Shown here: positions 15,117 through 24,145 of the stretch, one piece after another | Layout of the letters: every line of letters begins with the position of its first letter | Position numbering within the stretch: the first letter of the stretch is position 1 | Source of the DNA: Tamilnaduibacter salinus | GTDB lineage: Bacteria > Pseudomonadota > Gammaproteobacteria > Pseudomonadales > Oleiphilaceae | Length of the DNA: 64,000 bases | Direction of reading: 5' to 3' | Assembly: GCF_003096655.1 (NCBI RefSeq) | Contig: NZ_QEKQ01000001.1 | Location: forward strand, 124,001 to 188,000 | Program-made: the position numbers and the translations under genes | The notes under the pieces: generated by a model | Told to the model about the DNA's origin: nothing | The model's database searches: none | The model's input: the letters and a program-made list of their open reading frames with translations, nothing else

Positions 15117-16181
15117 ATGGCGCGGGCACCGTTTCGAATTGCGGGAGAGGAGATTCCCGCCGGCACCCGAAAGACGGTGGAGGTCCCGGTCGCCAAGCTC
15201 TATACCCACACGCCGCTGCACATTCCCGTGGAGGTGGTACACGGTCGTCGTTCGGGCCCGGTGCTGTTGGTGTGCGCGGCCATTCACGGGGACGAGATCA
15301 ACGGCGTCGAGGTGATTCGCCGGGTCCTGCGTTACGGCGCCTTGCGTCACCTTCGGGGCACACTGATCGCGGTGCCGATTGTCAATGTGTTCGGGTTTGT
15401 TCAGAAAACCCGCTATCTTCCGGACCGGCGCGACCTGAACCGGTGCTTTCCAGGGTCGGAAACCGGCTCTCTGGGTGGGCGTATCGCCTATCTGTTCCGC
15501 ACCGAAATCATGCAGAAGGTCACGCACGTCATTGATCTGCACACCGGGGCGATCCACCGTTTCAACCTCCCACAGATTCGTGCCGAGCTGGACAACCAGG
15601 CCTCACTGGAGCTGGCCGAAGCCTTCGGTGCGCCGGTCATCCTCAACTCGGGTCTGAGGGAAGGATCGTTGCGGGAACTGGGTGACTCACTGGGCGTCCC
15701 GGTCATTACGTTCGAAGGGGGCGAGGCACTGAGGTTCGATGATGTCGTGATTTCCTCCGGGGTTCATGGCGTCGTCCGGGTGATGCGCAAGCTCCAGATG
15801 CTGCCCCGCAAGGCGTCCCGCATCAAGGTGACCAATCGCTCGGAGACGGCCCGGAACTCCGTCTGGGTTCGCGCCGAAATCGACGGCATCATGCGTCCGT
15901 CGGTCAGGCTGGGGCAGCGGGTGCGCAAGGGCCAGAAGCTGGCCATCATCGCTGACCCGTTTGGCGCCACCGAGTCCCCGGTCAAATCCACCGTCACCGG
16001 CATCGTGATCGGCATGAACAACCTGCCGCTGGTGAACGAAGGCGATGCCATCTACCACATTGCCCGTTTCGACGAACTGGACGAGGCCGAGAAAACCCTC
16101 GACGATTTCCGCTCGTCCATGGACACGGAGAACAACGACCCGGTACAGCCGGACCAGCCGTGGGATGAGAATCGGGATTGA
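15117..16181 (+). CDS. Succinylglutamate desuccinylase/aspartoacylase-family metallohydrolase (M14-like)
   Basis: 354 residues of the AstE/AspA family. Zinc ligands are expected at His57 and Glu60 (AAIHGDEING) and His142 (VIDLHTGA), with substrate arginines in DRRDLNRCFPG and a catalytic-type glutamate in TFEGGEAL. The last roughly 90 residues (LGQRVRKGQKLAII, VKSTVTGIVIGMNNLPLVNEGDAIYHI) look like a small lipoyl-type barrel found in this subgroup. It is the third gene of the RimB-RimK operon. The substrate is unknown; an N-acylated glutamate or glutamyl peptide is a reasonable guess. Confidence 0.85.
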   Translation: MARAPFRIAGEEIPAGTRKTVEVPVAKLYTHTPLHIPVEVVHGRRSGPVLLVCAAIHGDEINGVEVIRRVLRYGALRHLRGTLIAVPIVNVFGFVQKTRYLPDRRDLNRCFPGSETGSLGGRIAYLFRTEIMQKVTHVIDLHTGAIHRFNLPQIRAELDNQASLELAEAFGAPVILNSGLREGSLRELGDSLGVPVITFEGGEALRFDDVVISSGVHGVVRVMRKLQMLPRKASRIKVTNRSETARNSVWVRAEIDGIMRPSVRLGQRVRKGQKLAIIADPFGATESPVKSTVTGIVIGMNNLPLVNEGDAIYHIARFDELDEAEKTLDDFRSSMDTENNDPVQPDQPWDENRD

Positions 16182-16189
16182 GAGAGTGA

Positions 16190-16414
16190 GCCACGGAAGA
16201 ACACGGAAATCACGGAAGGCGCGTCCCTTCGGACGCTAGAAACAGGAAAGTCGCAAGTGACAAGTTACAAGTGCTTTTGTTGTGGGCGATCACCCGGCGG
16301 GTGAAATGCGACCTTTGACAGGCGCTTGCCCGACGCATTTTTATGTTTGATTTGCAACGTGTTGCTTTAAGCTTGCCACTCTCTTTGTCCGTGCTTTCTG
16401 TGTTCTTCCGTGGC
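16190..16414. repeat. CACGGAA-type inverted-repeat element, copy 1
   Basis: The left arm 16190-16215 begins GCCACGGAAGAACACGGAAA and is the inverse complement of 16389-16414 with two mismatches in 26 bases. Each arm is made of CAC(G/A)GAA units about 10 bases apart. Just inside the left arm is a hairpin GCGTCC-CTTC-GGACGC (16221-16236). Three tandem 7-base units (CAAGTGA, CAAGTTA, CAAGTGC) lie at 16254-16274. The element fills almost the whole gap between converging stop codons (16181 and 16426). A second copy is at 23443-23574. There is no transposase and no convincing ORF inside. Confidence 0.8.
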
Positions 16415-16425
16415 GAACGCCGTCT

Positions 16426-17811
16426 TTAAAGATTCGCCTCCGCAAACTCCGCCAGCACCGACCTCGGCACACCCTGCAGATGAATATGCCCGCCGTGGCG
16501 GAAGCCTCGGAAGCGTTCGGTCATGTAAGTGAGGCCGGAACTGAGGCCGCTCAGGTACGGGGTATCGATCTGGGCGAGGTTGCCCAGGCAGATGACTTTG
16601 GAGCCGTTGCCTGCCCGCGTGATGATGGTTTTGAGCTGGTGTGGCGTCAGGTTCTGCGATTCATCAATGATGATCAGACTGTGCTGGAAGCTGCGACCGC
16701 GGATGTAGTTCAGGGATTTGAAGTACAGCGGCACTTTGCTGAGGATGTAGTCCACGCTGGCGGACATGTTCTCATCGTCTTCGTGCAATGCTTCCAGGTT
16801 GTCGACGATGGCGCCGAGCCAGGGTTCCATCTTCTCCGCCTCAGTGCCGGGCAGGAAGCCGATGTCGGCATCCAGGGCCTGGGTTGAGCGGGTCGCGATG
16901 ATGCGCTTGTACTGGCGGCTCGCCACGGTCAGCTCAATGCAGGCGGCCAGTGCGAGAATCGTCTTGCCGGAGCCGGCCGAGCCGGTCAGGTTCACCAGAT
17001 GCACCTCCGGATCCATCAGCAGGTCCAGCGCCATCGCCTGGTAGATATCCCGGGGTTGCAGCCCCCAGACTTCCCGCTCGGTGATACCGGCCTGGGACAG
17101 GTCCTCAAGAACGATGCGCTCGCGATCACTCTGGGTGACGCGACCGATAAAGCCCTGCTCGTCCACCACAAACTCGTTGACCGTGAGGTTTTCCAGACCC
17201 GCCTCGCGCCTCAGCACGTGTTCGGTCACCCCGTCCCGCTGGGCGGTCTCCACCTTTGGAATACGGTCCCAGAAAGAGCCCTCGAACTCCTGATAGCCCT
17301 GCGGGAGCAGATCGATGTCATCAATGAGCTGGTCGTTGTGGTAATCCTGTGCCTCCACGCCAAAGCCCCGCGCCTTGAGGCGCATGTTGATGTCCTTGCT
17401 GACCAGAATCAGGTCACGGTCCGGGCTCCGGCTCTGGAGGGCGGCCAGGGTGTTGATGATCTTGTTGTCGTTGAGATGCTCGGGCAGCACGTGAGTGCTG
17501 CTGTGCTCTGTGCTCATCAGGATCGAGAGCGTCCCGAGCGGCTCAGCTTTCTCCGCCCGGACGATCGGCACCCCCTTTTCGATGTCGTGGGGGCTCGCGT
17601 CCCCCAGCAGACGATCGATGTTCCGGATGGCCTGGCGGCAATCGGCGGCAACGGTCTGTTTTCCGGATTTGAGGCTGTCGAGTTCCTCGAGGACCGTCAT
17701 CGGGATGATGACATCGTGTTCCTCAAAGTTGAGAAGGGCGTTGGGATCGTGGATCAGGACGTTGGTGTCGAGGACATACATGATTTTCCGCGAGTGCGGT
17801 GCTGAGGCCAT
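16426..17811 (-). CDS. PIN-domain/PhoH-family ATPase (PhoH2, YlaK-like)
   Basis: 461 residues. The N-terminal PIN nuclease domain (about 12-150) keeps the acidic residues Asp15 (LDTN), Glu43 and Asp115. The C-terminal PhoH domain has Walker A GSAGSGKT at 277-284 and a Walker B-like LIIIDESQNLTPHQ. PIN-PhoH proteins have been shown in other bacteria to unwind and cleave RNA. The start could instead be codon 11 (MYVLDTNVLI, 17781), where GGAA precedes; 17811 has a more distant GGAGG. It is last in the minus-strand set START-CBS-PhoH, 61 bases after the CBS gene. Confidence 0.93.
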   Translation of the reverse strand: MASAPHSRKIMYVLDTNVLIHDPNALLNFEEHDVIIPMTVLEELDSLKSGKQTVAADCRQAIRNIDRLLGDASPHDIEKGVPIVRAEKAEPLGTLSILMSTEHSSTHVLPEHLNDNKIINTLAALQSRSPDRDLILVSKDINMRLKARGFGVEAQDYHNDQLIDDIDLLPQGYQEFEGSFWDRIPKVETAQRDGVTEHVLRREAGLENLTVNEFVVDEQGFIGRVTQSDRERIVLEDLSQAGITEREVWGLQPRDIYQAMALDLLMDPEVHLVNLTGSAGSGKTILALAACIELTVASRQYKRIIATRSTQALDADIGFLPGTEAEKMEPWLGAIVDNLEALHEDDENMSASVDYILSKVPLYFKSLNYIRGRSFQHSLIIIDESQNLTPHQLKTIITRAGNGSKVICLGNLAQIDTPYLSGLSSGLTYMTERFRGFRHGGHIHLQGVPRSVLAEFAEANL

Positions 17812-17872
17812 AGTGCTGGCATCCTCCCGGTGGACAGGAATGGCGGCGTCGCGGCAGTGGCGGGGTGGTCCG

Positions 17873-18361
17873 CTACTGGGCGCAGCGCCTCGTCAGGTCA
17901 TTGTCGGAAATCAGCTTGAGCATGTCGTACGTGGTGATAATACCAGTCACCTCGCCATCCCGTGTGACAAAAATACGGTGCAGGTGTTCTTCCATCATCT
18001 GCGCGGCAATGTCCCGGACTGGCGTGTCTTCCGTTACCGACAGAACGATGGGCGTCATGATGTCCCGGACTTCGACCGGCAGACGGCTCATCTCCTCGAA
18101 AATGAACATCCTCAGCCGGCGCGCTTCCTGCTGTTCCTCCGGAGTCAGGCGGGCTTCGGAGTCGGACGCCTCAGAGGCATTCCAACGGAATTCCGCCACG
18201 TCCTTGAGCGTGGCGATACCGACAATGCGACCTTCGTCATCACAGACCGGGCTGCCGGTAATCTCGTTGTCGGTGAGAAAGCGGGTGAAACGGTCCATGG
18301 TCCAGGACTGGGGAACGGCCTTGACGCTTGGCGTCATGATCTCGCGTGCGAGAACGGTCAT
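17873..18361 (-). CDS. Tandem CBS-domain protein
   Basis: 162 residues from the ATG at 18361, with AGGAA 8 bases upstream. Two CBS motifs are visible: IMTPSVKAVPQSWTMDRF...GIATLKDVAEF, and DIMTPIVLSVTEDTPVRDIAAQMMEEHLHRIFV...GIITTYDMLKLI. A charged helical insert rich in Glu and Arg (about 65-95) separates them. Stand-alone CBS pairs bind adenosine nucleotides and act as regulators; no partner is fused here. It lies 52 bases after the START gene and 61 bases before the PIN-PhoH gene on the same strand. Confidence 0.9.
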   Translation of the reverse strand: MTVLAREIMTPSVKAVPQSWTMDRFTRFLTDNEITGSPVCDDEGRIVGIATLKDVAEFRWNASEASDSEARLTPEEQQEARRLRMFIFEEMSRLPVEVRDIMTPIVLSVTEDTPVRDIAAQMMEEHLHRIFVTRDGEVTGIITTYDMLKLISDNDLTRRCAQ

Positions 18362-18413
18362 GGGTGTGTTCCTGTGTTTGCTCGCTGGTCTGATTCTCAG
18401 GTTAGACGTCCGA

Positions 18414-19121
18414 TCAACTGGCGTCATCCCCCGAGTCATCGGGACGTTTTACCACATTCGTGAGTTTGCCGTTATGAAAAACCAGCCGGTGACCGGCATA
18501 GCGCGGTTCGTGGACGACATCCCGCAAAGCCTTGACGGACTGGAAGGGAATGTCCACGAGCAGGCTGTTCACCAGCCAGCTGGGAATCGAGCCGTTGGGC
18601 TCGGTGTGCTGTACCCAGGTCATTCGGGTCTGCCCGTTTCCGACCGGCGTAAAGCGGTAGAGTGTGTCCGACTTGGTGACCCGGACCATGCCGTCCTGTT
18701 TCGGATGGTGCCCCTTCACGGCGCTCATCCGCACTTCTACCGTGCCGCTGCCCGGCTCGCCCCGGGTCAATACATGCAGCACGTAATCCCGATCGGATAC
18801 GGGCCAGGGCATATCGTTCACCGAGTACGCAAAGCGATCCCGGAAGGTGCCGCTCAGATTGCGGGCCGCCGTGCAGTTGTGTACCCACTTCATGCAGGAT
18901 TGGGGGTGAGCCATTACCGCCATGACCCGGGAGACGGGGACATCGAACGTCGTGGAGGCCCGGAAGGCCTGGAAGTCCGATCCCGGCAGATCGGCGGTTT
19001 CAACCACGATGCCGTCGCTGTCCTGTTGAACGGCCCAGTCCGCGTCCTTCGGGGGCAGGGCCGGGCCGGCCAGGGCCAGGCCGGGCATGAGCAGGGTGAG
19101 AAGACACACGATGAATCTCAA
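18414..19121 (-). CDS. Secreted START/SRPBCC-domain protein
   Basis: 235 residues if the TTG at 19121 is the start, which has AGGA 7 bases upstream and gives a clean signal peptide MRFIVCLLTLLMPGLALA. A longer form from an ATG at about 19161 is possible but has no clear ribosome site. The mature protein is a single START-type lipid-binding domain: DGIVVETADLPGSDFQAFRASTTFDVPVSRV near the start and VNSLLVDIPFQSVKALRDVV near the end. Periplasmic lipid or sterol-like ligand binding is inferred. It is divergent from the DUF2804 gene. Confidence 0.85.
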   Translation of the reverse strand: MRFIVCLLTLLMPGLALAGPALPPKDADWAVQQDSDGIVVETADLPGSDFQAFRASTTFDVPVSRVMAVMAHPQSCMKWVHNCTAARNLSGTFRDRFAYSVNDMPWPVSDRDYVLHVLTRGEPGSGTVEVRMSAVKGHHPKQDGMVRVTKSDTLYRFTPVGNGQTRMTWVQHTEPNGSIPSWLVNSLLVDIPFQSVKALRDVVHEPRYAGHRLVFHNGKLTNVVKRPDDSGDDAS

Positions 19122-19255
19122 GGCGTCATCCTTTCTTCCTTGGGTGACTGGCGATAGCATGCCCGGAACTGTCACGGGCCGTTTGGCTCCGGAGTCTATC
19201 ATGTTGATAACGACCGGACTGTTACTCAGCCGGCAATCTCGCGAAAGGGACGCAC

Positions 19256-20251
19256 ATGAAGCTGATTGATGAACGGGGCCAGCCCCGACTGGGGCGACTG
19301 GTTGCGCCAGTCGATGAGCTGAATTATCGGGACTATGACCTGCGTACGCCAATGGATCGACCCCGCAGTCGACTCGCCCGGCGCTGGCGCTTCAATCAGT
19401 TCCAGTTCGTCAGCGCGATGGGGCCGGACTGGTTGTTGGGGCTGGCGATTGTTGATCTGAAGTTGGTCAGCACGGCCTTCTGCTACACCTTCGACTTCCG
19501 GTCAGGCGAGTTGAGCGAGCGCAGCTGGATGCGGCCGCTACCCGGAGGCACCCGGTCGGATCCCTTTCCGGAATCGGGGACGACCGCCTTCCGTCGGGGC
19601 GACTCAACACTGACCATCCAGGGTCAGGGGACCGCTCGTGAGGTCAGGGTGGACGCGCCGGACCTGGCCCTGGATCTGCGCCTGATGGCGGACGAGGCAC
19701 CACTGCGTGTCTGCAGCCAGGCGGGCTACACCGGTTGGGTCTATACCCGTAAATCGGCGGGTCTGCCCGTGTCGGGCCGTTTGCGGTGGGGTGGCCGCGA
19801 GCGGGTTCTGGATGCCACCATGCGGGGGAGCATCGACTGGAGTGCGGGTTTCATGCGCCGTGAAACCGCCTGGAACTGGGCCTGTCTGGCCGGCGAAACG
19901 GCGGATGGCCAGTCGCTGGGGCTGAATCTGGCGGCCGGGGTGAATGAGACGGGCGTTACGGAAAATGCCCTTTGGCTTGGAGGTCGGTGCCTTCCGCTCG
20001 GGGCGGCGATCTTTCGCTTCCGCCGGTATGACACCAGTGCGCCCTGGCGGATAACAACGGACGACGGCCGGGTCGACCTGGTTTTCGAGCCGGCGGGTGT
20101 TCGCAGGGAGAGGTTGAACCTGGGGCTGCTGGCGTCCAATTTTCGTCAGTTTCCGGGGACGTTCCGGGGGACGGTGCCTGATGAACAGGGGCGGGTCCTG
20201 TCCATCATCGATCAGCGCGGGCTCATGGAAGACCATTTCGCCCGCTGGTGA
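19256..20251 (+). CDS. DUF2804 family protein
   Basis: 331 residues. It opens MKLIDERGQPRLGRLVAPV and contains WRFNQFQFVSAMGPDWLLGLAIVDLKLVSTAFCYTF and GSIDWSAGFMRRETAWNWACLAG, patterns of the DUF2804 family. The function of the family is unknown; no signal peptide or membrane segment is visible. GGGAC lies 7 bases before the ATG. It is divergent from the START gene (134-base gap) and ends 24 bases from the minE stop on the other strand. Confidence 0.85.
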   Translation: MKLIDERGQPRLGRLVAPVDELNYRDYDLRTPMDRPRSRLARRWRFNQFQFVSAMGPDWLLGLAIVDLKLVSTAFCYTFDFRSGELSERSWMRPLPGGTRSDPFPESGTTAFRRGDSTLTIQGQGTAREVRVDAPDLALDLRLMADEAPLRVCSQAGYTGWVYTRKSAGLPVSGRLRWGGRERVLDATMRGSIDWSAGFMRRETAWNWACLAGETADGQSLGLNLAAGVNETGVTENALWLGGRCLPLGAAIFRFRRYDTSAPWRITTDDGRVDLVFEPAGVRRERLNLGLLASNFRQFPGTFRGTVPDEQGRVLSIIDQRGLMEDHFARW

Positions 20252-20275
20252 CGGAATGGCCGGATGACCCGCCCG

Positions 20276-20530
20276 TCAGTGTTCCGGCAGAGTCACGTTC
20301 AGTTCCAGCACGGAGCACTCATCGTTACGGTCCAGCTCCACCTGCACCTGATCGTCCTCGATTTCCACGTATTTGCGGATAACGGCCACCAGTTCCTGCT
20401 GCAGTTTGGGCAGATAGTCCGGTTGCTCGCGCTGGCCGCGTTCGTGGGCGACGATGATCTGCAGTCGCTCCTTGGCGACACTGGCGGACGTGTTCTTCTT
20501 ACGGCTCTTGAAATAGTCGAAAAAACTCAT
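20276..20530 (-). CDS. minE: Cell-division topological specificity factor MinE
   Basis: 84 residues. The N-terminal membrane and MinD-binding segment [23 protein letters not shown] and the C-terminal dimerisation domain ending [10 protein letters not shown] are typical. MinE stimulates MinD ATP hydrolysis and drives pole-to-pole oscillation. It is last of minCDE, 6 bases after minD. Confidence 0.98.
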
Positions 20531-20536
20531 GCCGCC

Positions 20537-21346
20537 TTACCCCCCGAAAACGCGTGCCAGGAATCCCTTCTTGTCCGCCTTGAGGAAACGGAATTCGCGC
20601 TCCTCACCCTCCAGGCGGGCCACCGCATCGTCGTATGCCTGTCCGGCATCGCTCTCGTCCTCCAGAATGACCGGCAGCCCCTGGTTCGAGGCGTTCAGGA
20701 CAATCTGGGACTCGGGAATCACGCCGAGCAGCGGAATCGCGAGAATGTCCGACACATCCTCGACGGACAGCATCTCGCCACGCTCGACCCGATCGGGGTT
20801 ATAGCGGGTCAGCAGCAGGTACTCCTCGACCGGGTCCAGCCCCTTCTCGGCGCGCCGCGACTTGCTCTGCAGAATGCCCAGAATACGGTCGGAATCCCGC
20901 ACCGAGGAGACTTCCGGGTTGGTGGTCACGACGGCGGCATCCGCAAAGTAGAGTGCCATCAGGGCGCCGTGCTCGATGCCGGCCGGCGAGTCGCAGACGA
21001 TGTAATCGAACGTCTCGGACAGTTCGTTCAGGACTTTCTCAACGCCTTCAAACGTCAGCGCTTCCTTTTCGCGCGTCTGGGACGCCGGCAGGATGTAGAG
21101 GGAGTTGACACGTTTATCCCGAATCAGCGCCTGGTTCAGCGTCGCTTCGCCCTGGATCACGTTGACGAAGTCGTACACGACCCGGCGTTCGCAGTTCATG
21201 ATCAGGTCGAGATTGCGCAGGCCCACATCAAAGTCGATGACCACGGTCTTGTGGCCGCGGCGGGCCAGCCCGGTACTGATGGAGGCGCTGGTGGTGGTTT
21301 TGCCAACGCCGCCTTTGCCTGAGGTTACGGTGATGATCTTAGCCAA
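20537..21346 (-). CDS. minD: Septum-site determining ATPase MinD
   Basis: 269 residues. The deviant Walker A KGGVGKTTT is near residue 11, and the C-terminal amphipathic membrane-targeting helix (FLKADKKGFLARVFGG) is present. The start codon is TTG (21346), because MAKIITVTSGKGG begins there with AGGA 8-9 bases upstream; no ATG gives a proper N-terminus. It lies 57 bases after minC. The weak start codon may set the MinD to MinE ratio, which is inference. Confidence 0.97.
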   Translation of the reverse strand: MAKIITVTSGKGGVGKTTTSASISTGLARRGHKTVVIDFDVGLRNLDLIMNCERRVVYDFVNVIQGEATLNQALIRDKRVNSLYILPASQTREKEALTFEGVEKVLNELSETFDYIVCDSPAGIEHGALMALYFADAAVVTTNPEVSSVRDSDRILGILQSKSRRAEKGLDPVEEYLLLTRYNPDRVERGEMLSVEDVSDILAIPLLGVIPESQIVLNASNQGLPVILEDESDAGQAYDDAVARLEGEEREFRFLKADKKGFLARVFGG

Positions 21347-21403
21347 GGTTGCAGTCCTGTTTGCTGTGGTTCTGGTTGCGGCCCGGTCTGCGGGCCTTTG
21401 CGA

Positions 21404-22177
21404 CTACGCGAGTGGTGATACCGCCAGTACGTTTTCTTTGAGTTGTATCTGTGCTGGCGCCTTCCAGCCTTTCTCCTGAAGATCTTCGGAGATTTTATAG
21501 TGCCCGGCGATGGAGACAAGCTCCGCTTCCAGAGACTGGCAGAATACCCGGGCGGTGTGCCGTCCGTGAACCCCTGCCAGCGCCCGGCCGCGAAGGGGGC
21601 CGTAGACGTGGATGTTGCCGGCGGCCAGTACCTCGGCACCGGCCTGGACCGGCGCCAGAATGATCAGGTCGCCATCCGGTGCGTAGATCTGCTGGCCGGA
21701 ACGCACAGGCTGGGTGATCAGCCGGGATTCGGCCGGTACGGTCTGTTCCTGTTCCACCGGACGGGCCGCTTCGGCGGTCGGTTCCGGTGAGGGGGTGTCC
21801 TGCGAGGCCGTTTCCTGGTCCGGTCCGGCCGGACTTTCCGGGCGTGAGGATGCAGGCAACAACGCCAGTGAGGCGTTGCGCGCCAGTCGCTGCTGATCCT
21901 CGTCGCCTCCACGGACGGCAACCACGTGCATGCTGTGACGGCGGCAGATGCCGATCAGTTGGAAAAAATCCAGCTCACTGGACGGTCCCTTGTACCGTGA
22001 CAGGTCCACGACGAGCGGGATGTCCCGGAAAAATCCCGGCGCCTGGCGGATTTTGTCGCGGAGGGTTTCCTCGAATGCCTCCACCTCGAAGTAGCGCAGT
22101 TCGAGGGCGGTCAGGGGTACATTGGCGCCCTTGAGCTGAAAGCAGGGCATCGTCTGCAGGGCATCCGCGTCCGGCAT
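21404..22177 (-). CDS. minC: Septum-site inhibitor MinC
   Basis: 257 residues from the ATG at 22177, with GGAG 9 bases upstream. The N-terminal FtsZ-inhibiting domain (about 8-110: CFQLKGANVPLTALELR, PLVVDLSRYKG) is joined by a long Pro/Glu/Ser-rich linker to the C-terminal beta-helix domain (GQQIYAPDGDLIILAPVQAGAEVLAAGNIHVYGPLRGRALAG). The linker is longer than in E. coli MinC (231 residues). It is first in minCDE and divergent from dinB, sharing a 179-base gap with the LexA box. Confidence 0.96.
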   Translation of the reverse strand: MPDADALQTMPCFQLKGANVPLTALELRYFEVEAFEETLRDKIRQAPGFFRDIPLVVDLSRYKGPSSELDFFQLIGICRRHSMHVVAVRGGDEDQQRLARNASLALLPASSRPESPAGPDQETASQDTPSPEPTAEAARPVEQEQTVPAESRLITQPVRSGQQIYAPDGDLIILAPVQAGAEVLAAGNIHVYGPLRGRALAGVHGRHTARVFCQSLEAELVSIAGHYKISEDLQEKGWKAPAQIQLKENVLAVSPLA

Positions 22178-22331
22178 GTACGGTGGTCTCCAATGATTGG
22201 TTCCTGGAACCCGGGGCGACCCGGTTCGCGCGATGGTAGCACGTAACCGGGCCCTGTCGTGGATTACCATGTGTTCGGAATTGGTCGATGAGGCCCTGAG
22301 TCATCAACCGCCGCCCTGTGCTAGCATGGTG

Positions 22332-22347
22332 CTGTATCGATATACAG
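22332..22347 (+). promoter_or_regulatory. LexA-binding SOS box upstream of dinB
   Basis: CTGTATCGATATACAG is a perfect CTGT-N8-ACAG LexA operator, 9 bases before the dinB ATG. This close position suggests it overlaps the transcription start region and represses dinB until SOS induction. Confidence 0.88.
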
Positions 22348-22356
22348 GTAAGTGGC

Positions 22357-23439
22357 ATGAGGACGAGTGAGGACAGCGGTCGTCCCCGCAAGATTATCCA
22401 CCTCGACTGCGACTGTTTTTACGCAGCCGTGGAAATGCGTGACGATCCGACCCTGCGCCAGGTGCCGCTGGCCGTCGGCGGTGCGGGCGGTCGGGGCGTG
22501 GTCACCACCTGCAATTATCTGGCGCGGGAATATGGCATCCGCTCAGCCATGCCGGGTAGTGAGGCGCGGCGCCGCTGCCCAAATCTGGTGACGGTGCCCA
22601 CCGACATGCCGCGGTACAAAGCCGTTTCGAAGCAGGTGATGACCCTCTTCCGGGAGCTGACTGACCGGCTGGAACCGCTGTCGCTGGACGAGGCCTTTCT
22701 GGATGTCACCGATGTGACGGATCACCACGGCAGCGCGACGCTGATGGCCGAATACCTGCGCGAACGGGTACGCCGGGAGATCGGGATCACGGTGTCGGCC
22801 GGCGTGGCGCCCAACAAATTCCTTGCCAAGGTGGCCAGCGACTGGAACAAGCCGGATGGGCTGCATGTGGTCACGCCGGACGATGTGCCGGCTTTTGTGC
22901 AGGCGCTGTCCGTGGATCGGCTGTTCGGTGTCGGGCCGGTCACGGCACGCCGACTGAAAGAAATGAACGTGAGTACCTGTGGCGATCTCCAGGCCGTGGC
23001 GCCTGATCGCCTCGTGGCCGCCTTTGGTAAACAGGGGATTCGGCTCCATGAGATGGCGTATGGGCGCGATGATCGGCCGGTGGTGGTGACCCGTCAGGCG
23101 AAGTCCGTCAGCGTCGAGCGTACCTTTGACCGGGACCTGCCGGATTATCCGGCGTGTGAGTCGATGCTGGCGACACTGGCGGAGGATCTGCGAAACAGAC
23201 TTGCCCGGCGCCCCCGGGAACGCCCCATCCACAAACTCTTCATCAAGATTCGCTACAGTGATTTTTCCACCCACACGCTGGAACGGGTCCGGCCCGACGT
23301 GCAGGCCCCGGAGGGCGATGATTTTCGGCCACTTCTGGACGCCATCTACCCGGACGACGCCCGGCCCGTCAGATTGCTGGGCCTTGGTGTGCGGTTCCGC
23401 GAAGACCACGCGCCGCGTCAGCAGTTGAGTCTGTTTTGA
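22357..23439 (+). CDS. dinB: DNA polymerase IV
   Basis: 360 residues of the Y family. Catalytic acidic residues lie in [12 protein letters not shown] and [11 protein letters not shown]. The little-finger domain follows, and the extreme C-terminus RQQLSLF fits a sliding-clamp binding motif (QxxLF). It performs error-prone translesion synthesis. The ATG at 22357 lies 9 bases after a perfect LexA box, so the gene is SOS-controlled. It ends 3 bases before the second CACGGAA-type element and converges on the PAP2 gene. Confidence 0.97.
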
Positions 23440-23442
23440 TGA

Positions 23443-23574
23443 GCCACGGAAAAACACAGAAAAACACGGAAGAAACACCCGGGGTCATTCACGGACCTCC
23501 GGCAGCGGGGTGGCCTGCCGCATCGTGAGCGCCTCCGAGGCGCTCTTTCGTGTCTTTCCGTGTTTTTCTGTGGC
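23443..23574. repeat. CACGGAA-type inverted-repeat element, copy 2
   Basis: The left arm 23443-23468 begins GCCACGGAAAAACACAGAAA and is the inverse complement of 23549-23574 with three differences in 26 bases; two keep G-U pairing and one is an A-C mismatch. The arm units CACGGAAAAA, CACAGAAAAA and CACGGAAGAA repeat every 10 bases. A hairpin GAGCGCC-TCCGA-GGCGCTC (23527-23545) sits just inside the right arm, mirroring the hairpin inside the left arm of copy 1. The element begins 3 bases after the dinB stop and ends 22 bases before the PAP2 stop, again between convergent genes. Confidence 0.8.
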
Positions 23575-23596: not shown

Positions 23597-24145
23597 TCAC
23601 GCCAGACCGGCCAGGGTCACGGCTGATAACCCCAGAATCACCCCCAGCAACGCGCCGGCCAGTACATCGGTCGGATAGTGCAGCCCCAGAATGACCCGCG
23701 AAGCGGCGACGCACAGCGCGAAGGGCAGCACGGTCAGACCCACCATTGGTAGCGTCATCAGCAGGATGGTTGTGAAGCCAGTGGCGTGCAGTGTGTGGCC
23801 GCTGGGGAAGCTGTAGCGATCGAGTGGCGGTGTGCCGCAGTGAATGACCGGATTGTTGATGAATGGTCTTTCGCGTACCAGATGCTGCTTGAGGAAGCGA
23901 TAGCCCAGTGTCCCGGTCAATCCGGCGAAGGCCATGACCAGGGCGATCGGGCCCCCGTGCGCGGGGCTGATGATCGGAAGTGCCAGGATCAGCAGGTACC
24001 AGGCGATGCCGTCACCAAGGCGGCTGACAACCCGGAAAAACGGCAGCACGAACCGGAAGCGCAGTGTCCGGTTCATCTGCTGGCACAGCGTCTGCTCGAG
24101 CTGGTCGGCGCGATCAAACAGGTGGAACACTTTGTCGGCGGGCAT
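23597..24145 (-). CDS. PAP2-family membrane phosphatase
   Basis: 182 residues with several hydrophobic membrane segments. The three acid-phosphatase motifs are present: KQHLVRERP, PSGHT and SRVILGLHYPTDVL. Such proteins dephosphorylate lipid phosphates such as undecaprenyl-PP or phosphatidate on the periplasmic side. AGGAGG lies 8 bases before the ATG. The start overlaps the end of the glycosyltransferase gene by 32 bases, so the two are coupled and may act in the same glycolipid pathway. Confidence 0.92.
   Translation of the reverse strand: MPADKVFHLFDRADQLEQTLCQQMNRTLRFRFVLPFFRVVSRLGDGIAWYLLILALPIISPAHGGPIALVMAFAGLTGTLGYRFLKQHLVRERPFINNPVIHCGTPPLDRYSFPSGHTLHATGFTTILLMTLPMVGLTVLPFALCVAASRVILGLHYPTDVLAGALLGVILGLSAVTLAGLA

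Follow-up and report, generated by a model that had tools for sequence, protein, structure and literature searches.

Short inverted-repeat elements at convergent gene junctions of Tamilnaduibacter salinus and their probable partnership with GxxExxY genes

The window analyzed here, a stretch of 64,000 nucleotides from Tamilnaduibacter salinus (contig NZ_QEKQ01000001.1, positions 124,001 to 188,000), holds two short non-coding elements, each bounded by inverted arms of heptamer repeats and each lying between two converging genes (Table 1). Matching arms surround genes for GxxExxY proteins elsewhere in the genome, and both elements are very likely non-coding members of a single system of GxxExxY genes and heptamer arms. 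The positions of the two copies, their CACRGAA arms (R, A or G), and the 9–10 bp spacing of the units agree with an earlier note on this DNA, with the innermost right-arm units degenerate, and the GC hairpin that the note placed inside one arm of each copy was also seen. Both copies were said to fill tight convergent junctions, and the flanking stop codons do lie 3–22 bp from the element ends (8 and 11 bp for element 1, 3 and 22 bp for element 2). The genes converging on element 1 are presumably succinylglutamate-desuccinylase-like (left) and PhoH-like (right); those converging on element 2 we take to be DinB-like (left) and PAP2-phosphatase-like (right). The RNA folds of elements 1 and 2 were better than those of 200 out of 200 shuffled sequences (z −5.85 and −6.04, respectively). 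A consensus match to an intrinsic terminator, a hairpin with a T-rich tail, was found in element 2, and a search for known RNA families in the window returned nothing beyond one tRNA.

Table 1. Coordinates of the two window elements, their flanking genes, and the two gene-bearing elements of the host genome (prefix C8, host-genome contig; all other positions are those of the window)
Feature	Position	Strand	Description
Element 1, non-coding, CACGGAA arms	16190..16414	.	225 bp; fills convergent gene junction
Element 1 left arm	16190..16217	+	GC, then CACGGAA units at 16192, 16202, 16211
Element 1 GC hairpin GCGTCC/GGACGC	16221..16236	.	Just inside left arm; paired in RNA fold
Element 1 right arm	16387..16414	-	CACGGAA 16412-16406, CACAGAA 16402-16396, degenerate CACGGAC 16393-16387
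Element 2, non-coding, CACRGAA arms	23443..23574	.	132 bp; fills convergent gene junction
Element 2 left arm	23443..23471	+	CACGGAA 23445, CACAGAA 23455, CACGGAA 23465
Element 2 GC hairpin GAGCGCC/GGCGCTC	23527..23545	+	Inside right arm; TTTCGTGTCT follows; resembles a terminator on the + strand
Element 2 right arm	23546..23574	-	CACAGAA 23572-23566, CACGGAA 23562-23556, degenerate third unit CACGAAA
Gene left of element 1, converging	15117..16181	+	354 aa; stop at 16181
Gene right of element 1, converging	16426..17811	-	461 aa; stop at 16426
Gene left of element 2, converging	22318..23439	+	373 aa; stop at 23439
Gene right of element 2, converging	23597..24145	-	182 aa; stop at 23597
CACGGAA-armed GxxExxY element	C8:177642-178130		489 bp; one short gene
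CGCGGAA-armed GxxExxY element	C8:186548 to about 187014		About 470 bp; one short gene

The 3.4-Mb host genome was searched with the arm pattern CACRGAA-N2-4-CACRGAA and, as a control, with the reversed pattern. The search returned 195 matches (101 + 94) compared with 1 for the control; on this count, and because elements 1 and 2 fold better than all of their shuffled versions, the pattern is beyond chance. Ninety-one arm clusters were examined around the matches listed, which are part of the family and probably most of it; an element that contains a tRNA gene entered the count as a pair of clusters, and only those CGCGGAA arms that lie near CACRGAA arms could be seen. Neighboring genes were assigned with a simple codon-usage gene caller, which resolved 76 clusters and left 15 unclassified. 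Forty-five of the resolved clusters sit at convergent junctions, 29 between co-directional genes, and 2 at divergent junctions. By comparison, 12 of the 162 remaining pairs of neighboring genes in these stretches were convergent (odds ratio 18, p 1.9e-17), as were 7 of the 91 with gaps of at least 30 bp (p 2.6e-13). Copies are therefore not blind to gene orientation, and the enrichment at convergent junctions that the earlier note had proposed to look for is present among the clusters read. Elements at convergent junctions begin a median of 14 bp from the left stop and end 26 bp from the right stop. Arms are mostly paired: 56 of the 91 clusters have them on both strands, 54 of these starting on the plus strand and ending on the minus strand, and 35 have them on one strand under the strict pattern.

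Element ends across the genome read TTNGCC...GGCNAA, with GC in 95–100% and the two T in 72–84% of 70 left and 74 right ends. Position N is free, and the outer GA flanks once thought to mark both copies are not a feature of the family. Inward of the arms lie a GC hairpin and more inverted pairs, for example of the GTAGGTTGGGCTGACG and TTTTAAAG types. Of the 48 elements with a usable interior, 39 have a hairpin of 5 bp or more just inside at least one arm, and 6 have one inside both arms. When these 48 interiors were compared, 16 were covered over more than 80% of their length by others (the long matches listed being 68–85% identical) and 12 matched none, so sub-families exist; the shortest elements measure 59–94 bp. 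In layered elements, an arm made of CGCGGAA units only lies outside the adjoining CACRGAA-containing arm in 13 of 13 left and 13 of 14 right cases, 12–29 bp apart. A tRNA-Asp gene (L021 1718-1794; G000:C1, between arm clusters 362904 and 363563) was found within CACGGAA arms that are themselves nested inside CGCGGAA arms, and at two junctions, G000:C7:240291-240714 and C4:39751-40197, inverted repeats unrelated to one another form several concentric layers. Insertion into a hairpin tip was considered and rejected; complementarity between the outer left and right flanks of 54 pairs equals that of shuffled pairs (5.09 versus 5.09).

An association of such repeats with GxxExxY genes was a prior lead that this analysis tested. 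The host genome has two matches to PF13366 (GxxExxY), and both are inside such arms (Table 1), of the CACGGAA and CGCGGAA types that dominate the elements read. The two proteins, L131 and L132, scored 133.7 and 120 bits against PF13366 (cut-off 22), and L131 scored 137.5 bits against TIGR04256 (curated cut-off 35). The earlier description of the family as MITE-like (miniature inverted-repeat transposable element) and without a transposase thus holds in that these are dispersed inverted-repeat elements that lack a gene of their own; it misses the gene-bearing versions, which encode GxxExxY and no known transposase. In the CACGGAA coding copy, a GC hairpin directly follows the gene and precedes the right arm, which suggests that the non-coding copies, as deleted versions of a coding element, have retained its former transcription terminator in their GC hairpin. 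The CGCGGAA coding copy has no hairpin after its gene, and that gene is open throughout.

PF13366 was searched for in 369 genomes of the class to which the window belongs, the gammaproteobacteria, a placement taken from Marinobacter-like relatives of the PhoH gene; 66 of these genomes gave a match. Seventy-two loci, including the two of the host genome, were taken mostly by score, leaving out partial and weak matches and a few strong ones (e.g., G121); two (L182 and L208) were dropped for short flanks, leaving 70. An inverted repeat with a score of at least 13 brackets the gene at 64 of these 70 loci compared with 1 of 134 shifted windows from the same stretches. Left and right flanks mismatched between different loci reached this score in 43 of 600 pairs, and PhoH genes, used as a further control, in 0 of 72. 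A second set came from the phylum, where 64 of 398 sampled genomes have the gene; 30 loci, mostly from one family (f207), and 19 added for other families gave 48 usable loci after one with a short flank (L367) was removed. Brackets were found at 27 of the 48, compared with 2 of 88 shifted windows and 15 of 300 mismatched pairs, clearly weaker than in the first set. Eight plasmid-labeled records from other groups were also scored: loci from Bacteroides, Sphingomonas, Bernardetia, and Gemmatirosa reached 15–60, the Gemmatirosa bracket being a different, 90-bp repeat, and the other four reached 9–11. Two plasmid-labeled records, L277 and L279, hold housekeeping genes (radA, rpsF or fab), so that they could be chromids or pieces of a chromosome.

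Self-matching within the arms of 55 loci peaked at lags of 9 and 10 (0.455 and 0.387; shuffled about 0.29), with a shoulder at 8. The heptamer itself varies by locus; CACGGAA, CGCGGAA, CACAGAG, CACGAAG, CACGAAA, CGCAAAG, CGCCAAG, CGCAAAT, CATGAAG, and others were seen. At one arm, G223:C1:102100-102205, CACGGAGTA units follow one another in a long tandem array, which indicates that heptamer number can expand.

Arm sequence follows protein sequence. Arm similarity and protein similarity were correlated across 64 loci, with pairs above 85% identity excluded (r 0.327; none of 2000 permutations was as high), and arm similarity rose from 0.08 at 35–45% protein identity (1030 pairs) to 0.59 at 65–85% (8 pairs). 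For this correlation and for the count test, loci scoring below 12 were left out, the L137 arm was added, and the L132 arm was replaced by hand. Arm matches were counted in 55 of the 66 PF13366 genomes, omitting 11 with weak or partial matches, and each of three heptamer types was more frequent where a GxxExxY gene with the same arms was present: CACRGAG, median 50 in 9 genomes compared with 1 in 46 others (Mann-Whitney p 6e-5); CGCAAAG, median 7 in 13 compared with 0 in 42 (p 9e-6); and CACGAAR, median 53 in 8 compared with 0 in 47 (p 2e-5). When the 4 matches of the gene's own arms were subtracted, these values became 4e-4, 7e-3, and 1e-4, respectively. For CACRGAA, more than 3 matches beyond the gene's own 4 were found in 4 of 6 genomes with the armed gene, and more than 3 matches in 10 of 363 others (Fisher p 1.9e-5). 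Exceptions among the three types compared first run both ways, with 0–3 matches in some armed genomes and up to 121 in the others. G035, with 121 CACRGAG matches, was grouped with the others through the score cut, its arm score being 11; G288 is a true exception, with 117 CACRGAG matches yet CACGAAG arms around its gene. The highest CACRGAA count among the 369 genomes was 893 matches in 3.5 Mb (G334).

In the host genome and in G084, the non-coding copies examined bear the same arm types as the genome's own GxxExxY genes. Arms of the CACGAAG type enclose CGCAGATT or ACAGGATT arms in non-coding elements of G084, and these three types are also those of its GxxExxY loci L154, L215, and L193. Taken together, the bracketing, the tracking of protein by arm, and the per-genome counts make it very probable that GxxExxY and the heptamer arms form one system.

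GxxExxY proteins (PF13366/TIGR04256), which have been little studied, have roughly 125 residues and are PD-(D/E)XK-like. After proteins of fewer than 100 residues (L180, L191, and L200) were set aside, 69 remained for alignment; in 38 aligned sequences, G23, G25, E28, Y31, E38, Y56, E77, K79, Q91, and Y95 do not vary, and D67 is almost constant. We take these residues to be a D...ExK plus QxxxY arrangement as in RecB/Cas4 nucleases, and this assignment is supported by weak matches of the Pfam Cas4 model PF01930 to 12 of the 38 proteins (best E 0.0035) and of the PADLOC Cas4 model PDLC01611 to 18 of the 38. By sequence, GxxExxY looks like a Cas4/RecB-like nuclease; a relative with a solved structure was sought and not found. 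The portions of the literature on GxxExxY and PF13366 that were available contained nothing on arms, and a link between GxxExxY and repeats was not described in the literature searched, which excluded bioRxiv and covered subscription journals thinly. Among the arm strings sought, one was matched, in papers with unrelated titles. The 23S-IVP four-helix-bundle proteins (PF05635), considered as a second partner, were rejected: the host genome has 0 matches, and 0 of 6 PF05635 loci (from 5 of 17 genomes) were bracketed by a heptamer pair, the arrays of L178 being elsewhere in the stretch.

Comparison of related genomes bears on whether the elements move. G084 and G208 are 95% identical at the GxxExxY locus, and in a 19.5-kb stretch compared between them both genomes have all five CACGAAR sites, one of which has decayed in G208 while the other four are intact. 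Seven element pairs from these genomes (L287/L308, L288/L306, L293/L347, L294/L356, L296/L343, L298/L350, and L154/L138) form a small sample, three of them in that 19.5-kb stretch, that was picked for arms in both genomes and is therefore blind to empty sites; their interiors are identical at 1512 of 1525 positions compared with 4040 of 4200 in the 300-bp flanks, the interior being the better conserved in each pair. Their arms agree at 306 of 326 positions and are identical in six pairs, array length differing in L294/L356. The radA junction differs between genera: in Bacteroides finegoldii an armed GxxExxY element occupies the space from the stop to the next start, in Parabacteroides distasonis this space measures 13 bp, and Phocaeicola massiliensis carries other DNA in it. 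An empty site was seen for a MITE-like repeat of another, unrelated kind: its copy at L302:13499-13770 (G084), about 272 bp in length and bounded by long inverted ends, is absent from the matching G208 site, and dozens of other places in G208 match it. Carriage by phages was considered and rejected: a search of 50,697 phage records found no match, no relative emerged when viral contigs were scanned three times at the protein level, and none of five viral contigs with the 26-base arm pattern had the gene in the stretches examined. A viral contig of 4134 bp (L338) carries nine CACGGAA arrays in one direction with no inversion.

We consider it probable that the non-coding copies are members of a MITE/REPIN-like family that GxxExxY, as the enzyme, spreads or maintains; mobility itself we infer. 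Several results weigh against this explanation. In the second set, 21 of the 48 loci fell under the bracket threshold, and both arms fit one fixed heptamer form in only 46 of 67 loci, several of the misses having 8-bp spacing. The count tests by gene type are uncorrected for relatedness. In L132, the CACGGAA GxxExxY gene, the reading frame departs from that of its relatives close to the end, which may mean that the window elements no longer have an active partner. Among genomes with at least 10 CACRGAA matches, 7 of 12 have no PF13366 match (G264, 121 matches; G068, 82; G156, 53; G153, 19; G199, 13; G267, 13; G250, 10), and in one of the five arm-rich genomes that do have it, G360, the genes carry other arm types. 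No strain-level empty site was seen between G084 and G208 in the 19.5-kb stretch, and no target-site duplication emerged from 49 element pairs, the best of 567 offset and length combinations having an unremarkable z of 3.2. Lastly, no CACRGAA array was present in 80 PhoH-locus stretches from other species, mostly Marinobacter, of which 12 show the neighboring gene, 6 of them within 700 bp; the CACRGAA family is accordingly patchy.

Some of these same observations would suit other explanations. GxxExxY could be cargo or an autoregulated host gene, with the arms moved by another enzyme or serving gene regulation. The arm-rich genomes that gave no PF13366 match would be expected under this explanation, as would the lack of visible movement between G084 and G208, and arm interiors were read for open reading frames and tRNA in one region only, leaving room for other cargo. 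A cognate enzyme would nevertheless account better than random cargo for the tracking of protein by heptamer and for the abundance of matching non-coding copies, and we think cargo or autoregulation unlikely. The placement of the elements, close to stop codons and mostly between converging genes, is what would be predicted if, however they arose, selection retained them as 3′-end features useful to the host, either as bidirectional terminators or as mRNA 3′ hairpins. The strong RNA folds of elements 1 and 2 and the closer agreement of interiors than of flanks in the seven G084/G208 pairs point the same way, and the terminator-like hairpin and T-rich tail of element 2 are weak evidence for it. 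A terminator role alone would nevertheless leave the link between arms and GxxExxY unexplained, the sample behind the conservation figures is small and was selected by arm matches, and the absence of arms from the PhoH-locus stretches also counts against this explanation; on balance this is rather improbable. We give very little credence to a third explanation, that the elements are a repetitive extragenic palindromic (REP)/REPIN family dependent on a RAYT (Y1 HUH) transposase or on some other insertion sequence, with the GxxExxY link incidental. The general layout does resemble that of REPINs and REPtrons, as far as the accessible part of the source describes them (PMC3733652), but the gene between the arms belongs to PF13366 and is no tyrosine transposase; no genome-wide search for RAYT genes was made.

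The candidate GxxExxY family shares features with several known systems. Like MITEs, the elements are short, dispersed, non-coding, intergenic, and multi-copy, with inverted termini and kinship to gene-bearing copies in the same genome; unlike MITEs, they have as partner a PD-(D/E)XK-like protein that is no known transposase, their arms are phased heptamers, and the target duplication sought was not found. The main text of a MITE review makes no mention of nuclease, PDDEXK, Cas4, GxxExxY, heptamer, or convergent (PMC10969869). In REPtrons, a gene is flanked by inverted repeat copies that are also scattered without the gene, and repeat-specific REPtrons have been reported, according to the part of the report available (PMC3733652). 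The GxxExxY gene similarly lies between inverted repeats that also occur gene-free, but it is outside the tyrosine transposase families, and its arms are tandem heptamers instead of single palindromic REPs. Weak similarity to Cas4 profiles and the ExK and QxxxY residues recall Cas4/RecB-like nucleases and casposons, and Cas4 does also occur in mobile elements, as stated in the accessible portion of one paper (PMC5704561). The two coding elements of the host genome differ from casposons in showing one short gene each; Cas1 was not searched for. The TAACTGA repeats of Beggiatoaceae are abundant intergenic heptamers with no settled function in the part of their description that could be consulted (PMC4679880); going by the same portion, those are direct repeats mostly located just upstream of start codons, whereas the elements described here have inverted arms at gene 3′ ends.

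If GxxExxY is the enzyme of the family, its monomers might bind the heptamers within an arm, which, at about one helical turn apart, would present themselves on the same face of the DNA. The two arms could then be brought together and the nuclease would cut at or near the TTNGCC ends. Copies would be spread or maintained in trans by GxxExxY, with excision, break-repair copying, and insertion as possible chemistries. The bias toward gene 3′ ends and convergent junctions could arise from insertion there or from the loss of copies that damage promoters or genes.

More tentatively, and at somewhat less than even chances, these elements could exemplify a widespread class of mobile DNA that depends on one small Cas4/RecB-like nuclease alone. 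Unaided by any transposase or recombinase, such a nuclease would recognize groups of phased heptamers and spread the gene that encodes it along with hundreds of non-coding copies, its heptamer specificity shifting as the proteins diverge. Families with different heptamers would nest concentrically in such a class, giving layered palindromes at gene ends. The association gives a protein family named for a motif, and found in 66 of 369 genomes of one sample and in 64 of 398 of another, a concrete candidate role, and it supplies a partner for intergenic repeats of the CACGGAA, CACAGAG, and CGCAAAG kinds. The paired natural variation in protein and heptamer also offers a set for decoding DNA recognition by PD-(D/E)XK proteins. 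If the nuclease alone moves the elements, this would be a new kind of element and a new route of DNA mobility, in a layout otherwise that of MITEs and REPtrons.

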